A stretch of 29,860 nt of DNA, from IMG/VR virus record IMGVR_UViG_3300011115_000323, positions 1 through 29,860 of that record. The stretch is one strand, 5' to 3'. Numbering within the stretch: position 1 is the first letter of the stretch; every line of letters starts with the position of its first letter. The notes beneath the pieces were generated by a model, which worked only from the letters and a program-made list of their open reading frames with translations, ran no database searches and had not been told where the DNA came from. This DNA is from a virus. Both the position numbers and the translations under genes were made by a program. Positions 1 to 29,860 of this stretch are shown here, in pieces.

Positions 1-14
1 CCCGCGCGATCACC
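1..14. repeat. 14-bp terminal direct repeat, left copy (putative cos end)
   Basis: The first 14 bases, cccgcgcgatcacc, are repeated exactly as the last 14 bases of the window. The repeat is GC-rich and sits just upstream, in the sense of transcription, of the terminase small-subunit region. That is where lambda-like phages carry cos. A filled-in 14-nt 5-prime overhang would give exactly this picture; a circular assembly overlap or a short terminal redundancy would look the same. Confidence 0.75.
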
Positions 15-37
15 TGCGTATTAGACATAGACGGGAG

Positions 38-44
38 CCTCCTA
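38..44 (-). promoter_or_regulatory. Strong Shine-Dalgarno site next to the genome end
   Basis: Minus-strand TAGGAGG lies 9 nt upstream of an ATG at position 28. It is the best anti-Shine-Dalgarno match I noticed in the window. The reading frame from that ATG runs off the left end; if the two 14-bp ends are joined it continues from position 29846 to a TAA at 29749-29751, giving 41 residues. Whether this short frame is a gene is uncertain. Confidence 0.4.
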
Positions 45-113
45 AGATTATTGCATTAGGTAGGCAAAGCGTTATTGTTAGTAGCATAAAGCAATCTGTT
101 ATACTGTAGTCTA

Positions 114-548
114 TCACTGCTTCTGTTTGCTTTTAGCATTAGTGATATGCTGTTGCACGGTCTCTTTGCTGGGTATACTAACAACAGTATGACCAAGCGA
201 TTGTATCTTTCTTTGCAGCACTAAGCTTTCCCCGTGATGTAGAATCGCACCAACTCGATTCATACCGCAGCCCATTAGCTTACCGATCTCACGGTAAGTC
301 ATGCCATCGATTCTGTTTTTATAGGCGCGTTCGCAATCGTAGGCGTCAATCCACTTGGAGACCTCTTGCTCTTCGGTGATAGTCTCTAGCTTAATGGGAT
401 AGCTCATCCAACCTTTAGCAATAGCACTAAGCACGAGAGATGGTGCTTGATTCAAAAGGCTTAGTTTCTTATGAGAATCTTTAAGACAGTCTTGATCTAT
501 CTCTCCCTTTTGAATCTTGCGAGTGAGGTATTTTGGTGAGCCTCCCAT
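114..548 (-). CDS. Putative helix-turn-helix protein, last gene of the leftward series
   Basis: I do not recognise a named family. The 144-residue protein has a basic N-terminus and, at about residues 80-103, a helix-turn-helix-like stretch (GMTYREIGKLMGCGMNRVGA) like the DNA-recognition part of sigma-factor region 4 and many small phage regulators. A DNA-binding role is therefore inferred. It starts 1 nt after the stop of the preceding gene, so it is probably translated by coupling. It is the last gene before the genome end, downstream of the helicase and SSB-like genes, which suggests an early regulatory or replication-accessory job. Confidence 0.75.
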   Translation of the reverse strand: MGGSPKYLTRKIQKGEIDQDCLKDSHKKLSLLNQAPSLVLSAIAKGWMSYPIKLETITEEQEVSKWIDAYDCERAYKNRIDGMTYREIGKLMGCGMNRVGAILHHGESLVLQRKIQSLGHTVVSIPSKETVQQHITNAKSKQKQ

Positions 549-23623: not shown

Positions 23624-24613
23624 ATTTGTGTCGGGTTGTTGTGTTGGTTGCGACGTGGAGTCCACGCCATTTTTGCTGTTAGCGGTGTTGCTATTAGCAG
23701 AAAGCTTGTCAGACGGCTCTTCCGTCTGTTGGGTTTGAATGTACAGAGCGCGAAACCAATCGCGTCCGCTTGCACCGCCGTAGAGATTAGTTTCTACGTT
23801 TTGTGCGCTGTTTTCGGGATAGTCTAGAAAAGACTCATTATCTCCCCACCAATCGACGATTTTTTCAACAAGATCATCGTCTGGAATTTCTCCGTTAGCA
23901 ATTGGCTGAACTTGAGCGACTAGCTCTTGAGAAATTGTATCGGCACCATAACCATCAGCGAGTTGCTGTATGCCTTTATTGATAGCATCGCGCACAGATT
24001 GCGGAGCTTTAGGGCTAACAGCGCGAGGATGCCACTTAGCGGCCATTGCAAGCTGTTTGATGGGTTTGTCCACCAAGCCAAAAGCAAGAGCTTCAGCGGT
24101 AGTAAACCAAGTCTCAGCTTTCATCGCAGCGCGGATTGAATCAGCGGAGCGTCCAGTCTTCTTAGCATACACTCCAACCAACACTTGAGCGTGTTGATCC
24201 AAAGCATCAGCCATCTTACGCATATCCTCAGACGTACCAGAAGCCATCCCAGATGGATCGTGGATCATCATCAGAGCAGCGTCAGCCATCTCAACACGAT
24301 CACCAGCAAGAGCGATAATCGAAGCAATTGAAGCCGCAATACCAACAACGCGAGTCGTCACCGGAGCTTTGCGACCGCGCAACTGGTTGTAAATGCTGAG
24401 ACCATCCCATACGTTACCACCGGGGGAGTTGATCTCTACAAGTAGAGGACCGTTTCCAGCTTCAACGAGAACGTCGGAAAACTGCTTTGCAGATAGACCG
24501 CTACCTCCAAACCAGTCTTCACCAATCTGGTCAAATATCTGAATGGTCGCAGTCTCGCTCGCAGCATTTGCAGGAGCGTAATAAAGCCAATCGTTTTTCT
24601 TAATGAAGCTCAT
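22469..24613 (-). CDS. ClpP-like prohead protease fused to HK97-fold major capsid protein
   Basis: One 714-residue frame with two functions. Residues about 1-200 are an S14/ClpP-type head maturation protease: INSPGGNVWDGLSIYNQLRG, nucleophile Ser95 in GIAASIASIIALAGDRV, His118 in MMIHDPSG, and TWFTTAEALAFGLVDKP. Residues about 200-330 are a linker ending in a Ser/Asn/Gln-rich stretch. From Met331 to the end is a capsid protein with a short helical delta-like region (DLATIMAKLSALEASIKS) and HK97-fold body (DNLRPRATVQVKKFTTG, KVTAQMTAALFGAG). Met331 (position 23623) has a good A/C-rich leader, so free capsid (384 residues, the size of HK97 gp5) is probably also made from an internal start. ATGA overlap with the portal gene. 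Confidence 0.87.
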   Translation of the reverse strand: MSFIKKNDWLYYAPANAASETATIQIFDQIGEDWFGGSGLSAKQFSDVLVEAGNGPLLVEINSPGGNVWDGLSIYNQLRGRKAPVTTRVVGIAASIASIIALAGDRVEMADAALMMIHDPSGMASGTSEDMRKMADALDQHAQVLVGVYAKKTGRSADSIRAAMKAETWFTTAEALAFGLVDKPIKQLAMAAKWHPRAVSPKAPQSVRDAINKGIQQLADGYGADTISQELVAQVQPIANGEIPDDDLVEKIVDWWGDNESFLDYPENSAQNVETNLYGGASGRDWFRALYIQTQQTEEPSDKLSANSNTANSKNGVDSTSQPTQQPDTNMSDSTTVTAAAAPAASVDLATIMAKLSALEASIKSPTAAPAPDPVRPVIVNLGNPLLEKHKSLRAGAERKSFLIENHSELLRQSAMIAPQNANTFAAGLVVDYLADAVITVATTKLAMIAGFTRNVGLDNLRPRATVQVKKFTTGDATVDNATNFEDGAANQSTLAATSVTVNQITKSFTVTQQELNQGFAISDLAQGSAEIFALGISKKVTAQMTAALFGAGTVIGTAANFDSSDLPAILALAKNYRQKLLLLDGGHLARLMFSGQLTAAAGTNPFPDSRYGPLNNGYFGFANILEQNDYTGAIANTAGFVCGQDAIAIASGLPVGMIAGEFVEQRTVELSNGLSVLLSVWYSRSTRAHMASYDIMFGAAAADTTQAEVLITA

Positions 24614-26178
24614 TCAGTTTTGGCTTTAGGTTTCCGAGTCTTCTTCACAGTAGCGGTAACAACATCGGCAGACACAATATCATTGGATGGAGTCTGTGAG
24701 TCTGGAGCAGCTACTGGAGACGGAGCGTTTTGGTTTTCTGCCGGTATGTCAATACCAGTAACCGGAGGATTGGCGGATTTCTCTTTCTGGATTGTAGATA
24801 TCTCAGAAACATCCAATCCATATTTGAGAGCCAGCTCGCGAACAAACAAAGCTTGCTGTGCTTTAGCTTCTAGCGAAGAACGCCAGTCGAGACCACGCGC
24901 ACCGTAAACCTCATCGTAGGTAACAATACCAGCCTCTAGTTCTGCCAATTGAGCCGCAGAATTACGGCCAACGTCAACATTAGGAGAGCGCGGAGCGGTA
25001 ATCGATACTTCGTACCAGTCGCTTGGAGCGTCATTGAGAGCAGGATCAGTCTTGATCGCGTACTCCATAACGTACTCGTAAATACGACGAGCCGCTGATG
25101 CCATGACTTGATGGCGAGACTTAAACCAGACCGCAGACATATCTAACGCACCGCGATAGACAGTTCCCTGCATCGACTCGGGATATACCAGAACGTAAGG
25201 AATACCAACGCCAGCACAGACCTTTTCGGTCAATTGCCGCCAATACTCCCGCATATTTACACCGGGACGCTCGGTAGCGAACTGTTCAAAACTGTCACCG
25301 TTCTTCATTACCTTCACGCCAGATCCAAAGACCTGTTCGTAGTAATTTTCAGCCGTATTTAAAGTTGTTCCAGCAGTACCAGCGCGGAGATTGCTAGCTT
25401 GTACCTCACCGGAAACCGTTTTAACGATTTGAGCGACAGAAGCTCCGAGTTTACACGCTTCCATCTCCAACTTTTGGAGATCATCAAGATCGTGAAGATC
25501 GTTGATAACCGCCGAGACAAAAGGGAGACCTCTAAGTTGACCGGGACGATTCGGCTCGTAAATGTGAACTACAGAGTCAGAGCCAATTGATCGAACGTCA
25601 GTTAGGTTTCCCTGAGTCTTTTCGTTACCGATAAAGTAAGAGATTGCGCGACCAGTACGAGGGTCAAAGCGGATACCGTCAAACACGGTTTCATCCCCCT
25701 GCATTCCGGTAGGAGTAGCGATAGATTGAGCCTCAATAAGCTGCAATCTAGGTTTCCCGCTGTCTCCTTTGGTCAACAACAAGAACGATTCACCATCGTA
25801 GAACCATCCCCGAGCCGCTTGGGACATTAGGGTTGAAAACGACTGGCGAGAACCGATATCGGGATAACGGCTCCAGATATCAAAAGACTTCTTAGCTTTG
25901 AGATTCCAAGCAGGATCGCTGGAAGCTGGCTGAACTGAAAAATTAGAGCCTACAGTGTAGGACTCAAACAGGTCTCCAAGTCTATTTAGAACAGCGTTGT
26001 TTTGCTCAAAAAAGCGAGACTTGCGAACGATAGCTTGACGAGTTGCGCTCGTAACATCAAACCGCGCGGAAGTGTACGAGGTATCAAGATACGAACGACG
26101 CAACGAGTTTCCGGCTCCTTCGTATTTGTTAACGGGAGCGGGAAACAGCTTATTTGCTATGGTTTGAAGTAGACCCAT
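24610..26178 (-). CDS. Portal protein, lambda B type
   Basis: A 522-residue portal of the lambda gpB (PF05136-like) family: a ring of twelve subunits at one capsid vertex through which DNA enters and leaves. Typical features seen are the early RRSYLDTSYTSARFDVTSAT, ARGWFYDGESFLLLTKGDSG in the stem-clip region, PRTGRAISYFIG, VVHIYEPNRPGQLRGLPFVS, and GVGIPYVLVYPESMQGTVYR followed by AVWFKSRHQVM. The length is normal for the family. A Lys/Pro-rich end (KKTRKPKAKTE) is probably disordered. The TAATG start overlaps the joining-protein candidate; the stop overlaps the capsid start by ATGA. Confidence 0.92.
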   Translation of the reverse strand: MGLLQTIANKLFPAPVNKYEGAGNSLRRSYLDTSYTSARFDVTSATRQAIVRKSRFFEQNNAVLNRLGDLFESYTVGSNFSVQPASSDPAWNLKAKKSFDIWSRYPDIGSRQSFSTLMSQAARGWFYDGESFLLLTKGDSGKPRLQLIEAQSIATPTGMQGDETVFDGIRFDPRTGRAISYFIGNEKTQGNLTDVRSIGSDSVVHIYEPNRPGQLRGLPFVSAVINDLHDLDDLQKLEMEACKLGASVAQIVKTVSGEVQASNLRAGTAGTTLNTAENYYEQVFGSGVKVMKNGDSFEQFATERPGVNMREYWRQLTEKVCAGVGIPYVLVYPESMQGTVYRGALDMSAVWFKSRHQVMASAARRIYEYVMEYAIKTDPALNDAPSDWYEVSITAPRSPNVDVGRNSAAQLAELEAGIVTYDEVYGARGLDWRSSLEAKAQQALFVRELALKYGLDVSEISTIQKEKSANPPVTGIDIPAENQNAPSPVAAPDSQTPSNDIVSADVVTATVKKTRKPKAKTE

Positions 26179-26611: not shown

Positions 26612-28462
26612 TCAACCACTAGAATTTTCGGCGGTACTAGAACTCAGATCGTTCCACAGCATGACCATAGCCAACTGCATAATCTCACAATCGTGTAAAT
26701 GGTCCGGCCAACGAGTGTTTCTTTTAAACCACAAGTGTTTGATTCTACCGGATCGGCTGGCTGTTGGACGTAAAACGTGACTATCCAAATGCTTCCAGTA
26801 TGTGTCTGAATCGCTCGCAAATGCTCCTTCAGCGTCAAGCGGAGCGGGTAGACTACAAACGCTCCATTCGTGCTTCTCGCTTCCCTTACGGAGCCGCTGG
26901 AGAACTTCCCGCATATGTTCAGTGTCAAAAATCAGCAGCGGTTGAACAACCTCAGTCGTCATCGAGGTTGAGGTTGTTATTCCAAATGGATGGATCGAGC
27001 CGGTCTTAGACGTAAATCTTGCTCCAGCCTCACGGCCTTTCATTGGCATCCAACCGATCAACATAGGCTTGCGGAGACCTCCCTCCGGTGGGTAACGCAG
27101 ACCGCAGGGATAGTTGATAGGGCTGTTGCTTGTGGTCGCGTGAGCCGCACAAGCGTCGTAAACCGCTTGAGTGTTATAGCCGGAATCCACGCCAACATCC
27201 ATATCGTGTACCTTATAGTGGATCTGAATCCTACGCAGCGCGGCAAAGTCGTCTGCGTGACCGGCTCCAACTAATCGAGAGTTACCGTTGAGCCATTCGC
27301 GGCAGACCCACCAGAGGAACGGAGCGGCAGCTTGTACGTCTGCGGTGAGGTAGCGTCTTGCTTCTGGCATCTCAGCATCCGAGACAATCTCAACTCGGTC
27401 TTGTTGGGTCTCTTGGTTTTCCCACGGTTCTGCGAGCATCCCGTTGATGAATCCCTGCAACCCCATCATCGAGGATTTGGCTTCCAAGAATGCGACCGCG
27501 AGATTTCCCCAAGTACATTTGCGATCTGGGGAGTAAAGCGAAGACAGATGATAAGACCTCACGCTAGGAAGGCTGGCTTTATTTTCCGAGATCCACTTAC
27601 CGTGACGTAACCCCGCGACCTTCTGGCTGTCAGATATTTTCCCCTGACAGAGCTGACAGACGTAATGGGCGGTGGTACGGATGCGCTGCCAGTCGGGTCT
27701 GCCGTCTTCAAGTTTCTCGTTTTCCCAAGTGACTTGTCGCCACTCCAGCTTGATATGCTCGCGGCAATACGGGCAGGGAATGTAATACCGTCGCTGATCC
27801 CCACGCAGGTAACGCTGCCAGATTCGTCCCTCGGAGGTTGTGGGAGTAGAGGTAAAGAAAGCTTTGGAGCTAGAGAATGCTTTGAGTCGTTGCTCAGCGA
27901 GATCCAGAGCGTCGGCTTCTTTGGCTGTAGCGTCCGCGAATTTATCCACCTCATCCGCAACCAAGATTCTGACGGGACGGGACGCTAGATTTGCCGGTGA
28001 GTTGGAACCGACAAAGCTCAGAGTACAGCGGTCAAATTGCTGCTCAAGATTGGTAATCTGATCTTTGTCAGTCGGGAATCTTGCGACCATTGCCGGTGAG
28101 TCTTCCAGCATAGGAAGCCAACGGCTCTTACTGAACGACCGCGCTAAGTTCTCGGAAGGCATCAACCACAAAGCAGGAGACGGCTCCACGTCAACGGACC
28201 ACGCAAGACCAGCCATCAGCGTCGTTGTCTTACTGGTTTGAGATCCCCAACACAACGTGACTTCGGAGACCGCTGGATCTTTCCAGCACTCAAGCGGCTC
28301 TCGGCAATATGGACGCACCGCCGTGGAGAATGGACCGGGATGCTCTGTCTGTCGTTGGGATAGAGTAAGGTTGCGCTCTGCCCACTCGACTACTGACTGC
28401 CGTGGAGTCGGTCGCCATAATTGTCGTCTGAACTCTAGGATCTCGCGCTGTAAATCGGTCAT
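26612..28462 (-). CDS. Terminase large subunit, GpA family
   Basis: The 616-residue ATPase-nuclease that packages DNA and cuts concatemers. Seen are the GpA-type opening (WAERNLTLSQRQTEHPGPFS), an atypical Walker A GSQTSKTT at 73-80, Walker B ILVADEVDKF at 166-175 with Asp170-Glu171, motif III-like SKAFFTSTPTTSEG, a Cys-containing loop (CPYCREHIKLEWRQV, CQLCQGK) with two CxxC pairs, and the C-terminal nuclease with Asp at VDSGYNTQAVYDAC and WPDHLHDCEIMQLAMVMLW. GpA enzymes usually make cohesive ends, which agrees with the repeated ends of this window. TGATG overlap with the nuclease gene; length is normal. Confidence 0.95.
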   Translation of the reverse strand: MTDLQREILEFRRQLWRPTPRQSVVEWAERNLTLSQRQTEHPGPFSTAVRPYCREPLECWKDPAVSEVTLCWGSQTSKTTTLMAGLAWSVDVEPSPALWLMPSENLARSFSKSRWLPMLEDSPAMVARFPTDKDQITNLEQQFDRCTLSFVGSNSPANLASRPVRILVADEVDKFADATAKEADALDLAEQRLKAFSSSKAFFTSTPTTSEGRIWQRYLRGDQRRYYIPCPYCREHIKLEWRQVTWENEKLEDGRPDWQRIRTTAHYVCQLCQGKISDSQKVAGLRHGKWISENKASLPSVRSYHLSSLYSPDRKCTWGNLAVAFLEAKSSMMGLQGFINGMLAEPWENQETQQDRVEIVSDAEMPEARRYLTADVQAAAPFLWWVCREWLNGNSRLVGAGHADDFAALRRIQIHYKVHDMDVGVDSGYNTQAVYDACAAHATTSNSPINYPCGLRYPPEGGLRKPMLIGWMPMKGREAGARFTSKTGSIHPFGITTSTSMTTEVVQPLLIFDTEHMREVLQRLRKGSEKHEWSVCSLPAPLDAEGAFASDSDTYWKHLDSHVLRPTASRSGRIKHLWFKRNTRWPDHLHDCEIMQLAMVMLWNDLSSSTAENSSG

Positions 28463-29007
28463 CAGAAAAGCTCCTCGGTAATCTGTCCGCTCTTGATCTT
28501 GTAGTGAGCGGCTCCACTCATATCAATCAACGCCACTTTCTCGGATCGTCCGTTAACCGTTTTGTCGGTGATTTGATGGTTAGCCGCCCACGATGCGCTG
28601 CGATTAAAGATCTCAACCATCAGCACCGAGTCGTCGTCGTGAAGGTGGAGGATTCCAAAGAACGGAAGCTTAGTATGTCGAGAGACCTCAAGAGCGGCTT
28701 GGAGCTTTGACCAAGAAATCATCCAGCGGTTGCCAAAGGTGGTCTTCAATTTTATCAGACCGTAGTTCCGAGTCTTCACCTCATAGCTTCCGGCAATAAT
28801 CCCTTTGGCTGGATCGTAGATAAAACCATCGATGCGCGACGGTTCTTCGTTGGAGATTCCCAAGAACTCAAAGCCAGTTTGCCGCTCAATAGCTTTAAGC
28901 GCGATCCGGTTCTGTCGGAGTGCTTCGATGCCGGATGGCTTCTGGCAGTTTAAGATTTCCACGGGTCCGTTTGATGCAGAGTTTTGAGACACACTTCTTG
29001 TACCCAT
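28462..29007 (-). CDS. PD-(D/E)XK nuclease between the terminase subunits
   Basis: A 181-residue protein with a nuclease core: RQNRIALKAIERQTGFEFLG, Asp of SRIDGFIYDP, then GSYEVKTRNYGLIKLKTTFG with the E-x-K pair and a WMISWSKLQAALEVSR helix. The D-(n)-E-x-K spacing is that of PD-(D/E)XK enzymes such as Holliday-junction and repair nucleases. It is encoded exactly between small and large terminase genes, so trimming branched DNA at packaging or helping cos cleavage is likely. The ATG at 29007 overlaps the TerS stop by 58 nt; a GTG at 28962 would overlap 13 nt. Confidence 0.7.
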   Translation of the reverse strand: MGTRSVSQNSASNGPVEILNCQKPSGIEALRQNRIALKAIERQTGFEFLGISNEEPSRIDGFIYDPAKGIIAGSYEVKTRNYGLIKLKTTFGNRWMISWSKLQAALEVSRHTKLPFFGILHLHDDDSVLMVEIFNRSASWAANHQITDKTVNGRSEKVALIDMSGAAHYKIKSGQITEELF

Positions 29008-29591
29008 CGCTCTAGCTCACGCTCTGCGTGCTCAGGATCGTGCGGCGCAATGCGACCGGAAAGCTGTTTTGGCATCGACTTGAGCAGTTGGGCAACCGCT
29101 CCGTCGTGCTCTTGCATTGCCTTTTTGACCCAAGCACCGGAGACCAGCGTTCGCTCCTTCTCGGATTGAGCCAGTACGTCATCGCGGGAGGAGATTAGGT
29201 TTTTTGCTGCGGTCGCGTGTACAGAGACCATTCGACCGGCATCGAGGGATCGTGACTTAAGAGCCTCAACTGCTAAATCGTAAGCGGCTCGTTCAATCTT
29301 CTTCTGCCGTTCATATGCTCCCTGCGGGGAGTCTTCTGTTGCAAGAGCAGCGTTGATAGCCGTAGCTGCTTCAGGAGGTCTGTACGGGCCTCCAGCGAGT
29401 TCTGGCGCCGGTTGTTGCTGGTTGATTGCAGCCATTCGTTGGAGCGTGGACGGTCTACCTCCAATCCCTTTGCGCGATCCCCTCCAAGCGTCCGCTTCCT
29501 CTGGGGAGGTTAGAGGCATCCCTGCTGCGGTGAGTTGCGAGACTCTACCTTTTGTGAGACCAGAGTGTTTAACGTAATCGCTTTGAGTCAT
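28950..29591 (-). CDS. Terminase small subunit, Nu1-like
   Basis: A 213-residue DNA-recognition subunit. The N-terminus is a winged helix of the Nu1/MerR type (DYVKHSGLTKGRVSQLTAAG, then PLTSPEEADAWRGSRKG), which binds cos. A Pro/Gln/Ala-rich hinge (60-80) and a long helical middle (AYERQKKIERAAYDLAVEAL and so on, about 95-150) follow, the part that oligomerises and contacts the large subunit. Length is near lambda Nu1 (181). It overlaps the upstream small gene by ATGA. The nearby genome ends fit its role as the cos-binding protein. Confidence 0.82.
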   Translation of the reverse strand: MTQSDYVKHSGLTKGRVSQLTAAGMPLTSPEEADAWRGSRKGIGGRPSTLQRMAAINQQQPAPELAGGPYRPPEAATAINAALATEDSPQGAYERQKKIERAAYDLAVEALKSRSLDAGRMVSVHATAAKNLISSRDDVLAQSEKERTLVSGAWVKKAMQEHDGAVAQLLKSMPKQLSGRIAPHDPEHAERELERWVQEVCLKTLHQTDPWKS

Positions 29592-29800: not shown

Positions 29801-29846
29801 TGGGTTTGTACTACAATAGGGAGTTCGCTCGCACAAGATGATTGGT

Positions 29847-29860
29847 CCCGCGCGATCACC
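29847..29860. repeat. 14-bp terminal direct repeat, right copy (putative cos end)
   Basis: The last 14 bases, cccgcgcgatcacc, equal the first 14. This copy lies 46 bp before the first ATG of the packaging operon, where lambda-type cos sites lie. GC-rich, with a CGCGCG core and GGT/ACC at the borders of the joined site, it resembles a cohesive end more than a random overlap. Confidence 0.75.

Follow-up and report, generated by a model that had tools for sequence, protein, structure and literature searches.

A probable 14-nt cohesive-end (cos) site at the termini of a linear phage genome assembled from a metagenome

In lambda-like phages, the terminase nicks the cos site in a staggered fashion, and cos itself spans about 200 bp and comprises the subsites cosQ, cosN and cosB (PMC4669245). 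The 5' cohesive ends are 12 nt long in phages lambda and N15. For systems of the P2 type, a length of 19 nt is cited (PMC5557969), and 5' overhangs of this kind are expected to be filled in during library preparation, leaving a recognizable pattern at the ends of the sequenced DNA (PMC5557969). This kind of site has been long known from phage lambda, and the phage described here adds another member. The 29860-base stretch of DNA that was analysed (hereafter the window) resembles lambda and N15 in having fixed ends of probable 5' polarity, a site located beside the TerS-TerL operon, a TerL of the GpA family, a portal protein of the lambda family and an apparent circularisation that retains a single copy of the end sequence. 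It differs from both phages in the length of the ends (14 nt versus 12 nt), in the additional ORFs that precede TerS and separate it from TerL, and in a cos region that has no match in phage records. The P2-type site has cohesive ends of comparable length, whereas the GpA-family TerL of the window sets it apart from that type. No published 14-nt cohesive end was found in the literature searched.

The sequence CCCGCGCGATCACC occurs at both extremities of the window (Table 1), as the initial annotation had noted. Direct reading and a pattern search of the whole window established that the repeat is exact, and the search returned no further exact copy, the next-best matches having three mismatches. 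Because the window covers the whole of its source record (a virus contig, 29860 bases), its termini are genuine ends of that contig and do not result from arbitrary trimming. Given the base composition, the chance of identity for one fixed 14-mer pair is 3.8e-9, in agreement with the earlier view that a chance origin of the repeat is very unlikely.

Table 1. Coordinates of the putative cos site, its flanks and the packaging genes in the window.
Feature	Position	Strand	Evidence or proposed role
Left copy of 14-nt cohesive-end sequence	1..14	+	Exact repeat; relatives' starts; adapter tails at base 1; probably the 5' overhang strand at the left end
Conserved left flank, TGCGTAT ... GGGAGCCTCCTA block	15..46		Candidate cos accessory sequence
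Portal protein, lambda family	24610..26178	-	Phage_portal_2, E = 4e-44
TerL, GpA family	26612..28462	-	GpA_ATPase, E = 5.5e-64; GpA_nuclease, E = 5e-14; phrog_15, E = 1e-108; presumably nicks cos and drives packaging
Nuclease-like ORF between TerS and TerL	28465..28962	-	Invariant SRIDGF and YE.K motif
TerS, weakly Nu1-like	28950..29591	-	phrog_57 terminase small subunit, E = 7.2e-5
First ORF of terminase operon, about 70 aa	29588..29800	-	Near full length in 112 loci
Conserved right flank, site to terminase operon	29811..29846		Candidate terminase-binding (cosB-like) sequence
Right copy of 14-nt cohesive-end sequence	29847..29860	+	Exact repeat; relatives' ends; probably the filled-in strand, with the 5' overhang on the minus strand

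Very probably, the two 14-bp copies represent the ends of one linear virion chromosome and derive from filled-in 14-nt 5' cos overhangs. A GpA-type terminase would introduce staggered nicks 14 bp apart at cos, generating complementary 14-nt 5' overhangs; end-repair during library preparation would then fill in both overhangs and thus leave an identical 14 bp at each contig end. In the cell, the ends would anneal and be ligated to form a circle or a concatemer, in which a single 14-mer lies between the right and left flanks. The simplest reading of the site is a cosN with a 14-bp stagger. Following published logic (PMC5557969), the mark of 5' polarity is the same short sequence at both ends after end-repair, which was seen in seven records; a 3' overhang would leave the 14-mer off both ends. 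We infer cutting by the GpA-type terminase as well as the 5' polarity and single-strandedness of the ends, the latter two from this end-repair logic.

The evidence comes throughout from assembled contigs, above all from where those of relatives end. When viral contigs were scanned for exact copies of the 14-mer, it lay precisely at contig ends in a related group, while the many unrelated contigs that contain it carry it internally, none exactly at a contig end (both among the matches listed). Scans of IMG/VR contigs with the 14-mer plus one flank found 77 and 74 stretches, in which 43 relatives start at base 1 (2 more with short tails) and 42 finish at base 14 (7 more with one extra base), which amounts to over 80 related ends at the same base. 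Contigs with the 14-mer at either end come from 77 metagenomes, so that relatives from independent assemblies have fixed, unique chromosome ends defined to the base. Because these scans could detect only places in which most or all of the 14-mer was present, flank sequence alone was used as a control for selection; the patterns were short and exact, and the close group alone was therefore sampled. Among the 38 family places found with the left flank, 22 begin exactly at base 1 and 2 have adapter tails; a further 12 are joined, 1 begins 8 bases inside, and 1 (L230) looks chimeric. With the right flank, 48 of 100 places end at base 14, 4 end one base later, 29 are joined, 6 are one base short (L307 included) and 13 fall short by 3-22 bases. 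Retrieval by TerL protein alone yielded 80 contigs, 27 ending exactly at cos and 3 one base off, with 10 reading through cos and the remainder ending elsewhere. Further, a rare variant of the 14-mer, CTCGCGCGATCACC, is common to one left-end and one right-end contig of metagenome 3300043470, as expected if both ends come from one site. In L307, the site at the right end comprises 13 bases, CCCGCGGATCACC, the last of which is also the final base of the contig.

Three records have remnants of Illumina adapters attached to base 1. Base 1 is directly preceded by TCCGATCT in L116 and by GATCT in L128, whereas the left end of the 31602-base record (L314) is preceded by TCCCCGACGCTCGTCCGATCT, 18 of whose 21 bases agree with the standard Illumina adapter end; the 8-base tail is found in full in L116 only, among 774 locus ends. 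At the right end, the additional base is an A in 5 of the 7 one-base extensions, which is the base expected from A-tailing or from the adapter, and a G in the other 2 (L208 and L222), an addition that counts against the filled-in overhang.

The joined form of the site, in which the right flank, one 14-mer and the left flank follow each other, is present in about 30 relatives. The scans with the 14-mer and a flank gave 24 places with both flanks around a single 14-mer. Another 8 internal places are joined sites in which the right flank is a variant, and in one more (L213) it is the left flank that varies. Foreign flanks beyond the ends, an outcome that would speak against the filled-in overhang, were looked for; beyond the site, the contigs that read through continue into the other end of their own genome. 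Together with the same-base ends and the adapter remnants, the single joined copy agrees with the published prediction (PMC5557969) and supports the earlier proposal that a filled-in 14-nt overhang explains both the repeat and its length. No strong centre of dyad symmetry was found around the 14-mer. A short minus-strand frame (MSNTQVIARD...), whose start codon comes after AGGAGG (window 45-27), crosses the joined cos; this ORF was rejected as a gene, its start being missing in one subgroup and its frame breaking after cos in others.

Identical contig ends and a single copy in joined DNA would also be produced by a short direct terminal repeat, that is, blunt virion ends with a true double-stranded duplication of 14 bp that arises, as in T7, through extension synthesis, and contigs alone cannot tell such a repeat from a filled-in overhang. 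Length and terminase family nonetheless make this very unlikely. Among the cases cited, direct terminal repeats have at least 131 bases and cohesive ends at most 19 (PMC5557969), so that a repeat of 14 bases lies in the cohesive range and far below the about 131 bases or more of T7-like ends, and in the GpA family, of which the TerL is a member, the lambda enzyme produces 5' overhangs. Headful (pac) packaging, which gives circularly permuted DNA with no fixed right end, was discarded, both ends being fixed to the base in relatives.

There is scarcely any probability that the 14 bp are instead an attachment-site core, in which case the two copies would be the attL and attR sites of a prophage integrated in its host, and the joined contigs would represent excised attP. 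A core of about this length is possible, and attP would likewise have one copy between two phage flanks, but the contigs of the family stop at the 14-mer or in adapter, with no consistent host flank beyond (L230 being the one odd case), the site lies beside terminase genes, and no integrase match was obtained among the ORFs scanned. An assembly or database artefact, either the k-mer overlap of a circular contig or a coincidence, can be practically dismissed. Equal contig ends are indeed common in circular assemblies; however, k-mers used in the assembly of Illumina metagenomes normally exceed 14 bases, and a k-mer overlap is thus no explanation for the repeat. Coincidence is opposed by the low chance value for a single pair, by the recurrence of the same end base across the independent assemblies and by the unrelated contigs, which do not end at the 14-mer.

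With the filled-in cos overhang as the preferred reading, the window is almost certainly a complete linear genome, whose circle would comprise 29846 bp. The initial annotation had regarded it as the whole genome, and the fixed ends of relatives, the adapter junctions and the single-copy joined sites uphold this. Seven records carry the 14-mer at both ends, the window and six others of 31279, 31945, 31388, 31248, 31602 and 30313 bases. A record classed in IMG/VR as linear without end repeats, and so often a fragment, is in this way upgraded to a complete genome whose physical ends are known, as are at least six related records. The case shows that contig ends pooled from public assemblies can locate a cos site with single-base precision when neither reads nor isolates are at hand. 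The phage group, moreover, gains a defined cos sequence, although its DNA has no match among phage records: none near was found there for window positions 1-24000 and none for the joined cos region.

Related phages were compared for a conserved block at the site, as had been proposed, and conserved columns were found in both flanks. In the left flank, GCGTAT and GGAGCCTCCTA are nearly invariant (66 distinct relatives), and in the right flank, ACAATAG and ATCGG are conserved (71 distinct relatives). These blocks were not matched to known cosB or cosQ subsites, and the functions proposed for them in Table 1 are tentative.

From the right end, the minus strand encodes in order the ORF of about 70 aa, TerS, the nuclease-like ORF, TerL, the portal protein and a ClpP-type head protease. 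Farther along lie tail genes and genes for a Bet-like annealing protein, an exonuclease, a RusA-like resolvase and a DnaB-like helicase. TerL identity to that of the window is about 86-96% within the cos-sharing group. The site had been described as lying immediately upstream of Nu1-like and GpA-like terminase genes. The GpA-type TerL is borne out, but TerS is not immediately adjacent, since the about-70-aa ORF intervenes, its likeness to Nu1 is weak, and the nuclease-like ORF separates it from TerL. Neither the about-70-aa ORF nor TerS has a Pfam match. The nuclease-like ORF gave a sub-threshold match to PDDEXK_14 (E = 0.24), and its predicted structure has a mean pLDDT of 44. It is unlikely that this protein assists TerS and TerL in cutting cos or in processing the ends; if it did, the system would represent a modified lambda mechanism into which an additional nuclease had been recruited. 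The slot between TerS and TerL is filled differently in a relative whose TerL is about 50% identical, namely by an unrelated ORF (L312:776-1465, plus strand) with a PLD-like H.K ... GSANLRS motif recognized by eye, for which no family match was found.

Verrucomicrobiota plausibly include the host, because the nearest relatives of TerL in genomes belong to a Verrucomicrobia MAG, ADurb.Bin006, whose TerL is about 50% identical to that of the window and has a TerS-like ORF upstream. The TerL of Akkermansia phage Moulinsart is 33% identical. No portal match was found in the ADurb.Bin006 MAG. A check of its contig for end repeats shared by the two ends found none, and the genes at the far end are different ones.

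In some members of the group, the stretch from the site to TerS is longer by about 1.2 kb. The additional segment of L286 encodes a QueC-like 7-cyano-7-deazaguanine synthase (L286:276-851, plus strand; E = 6e-43) and a second ORF without a match, and the presence of the synthase suggests a possible role of the segment in DNA or nucleotide modification. TerL likewise lies about 2546-2650 from the end in other contigs, e.g., L305 and L377. At the genome end opposite the terminase genes, the ORF at window 114-548 (minus strand) has a sub-threshold match to sigma-70 region 4/helix-turn-helix.
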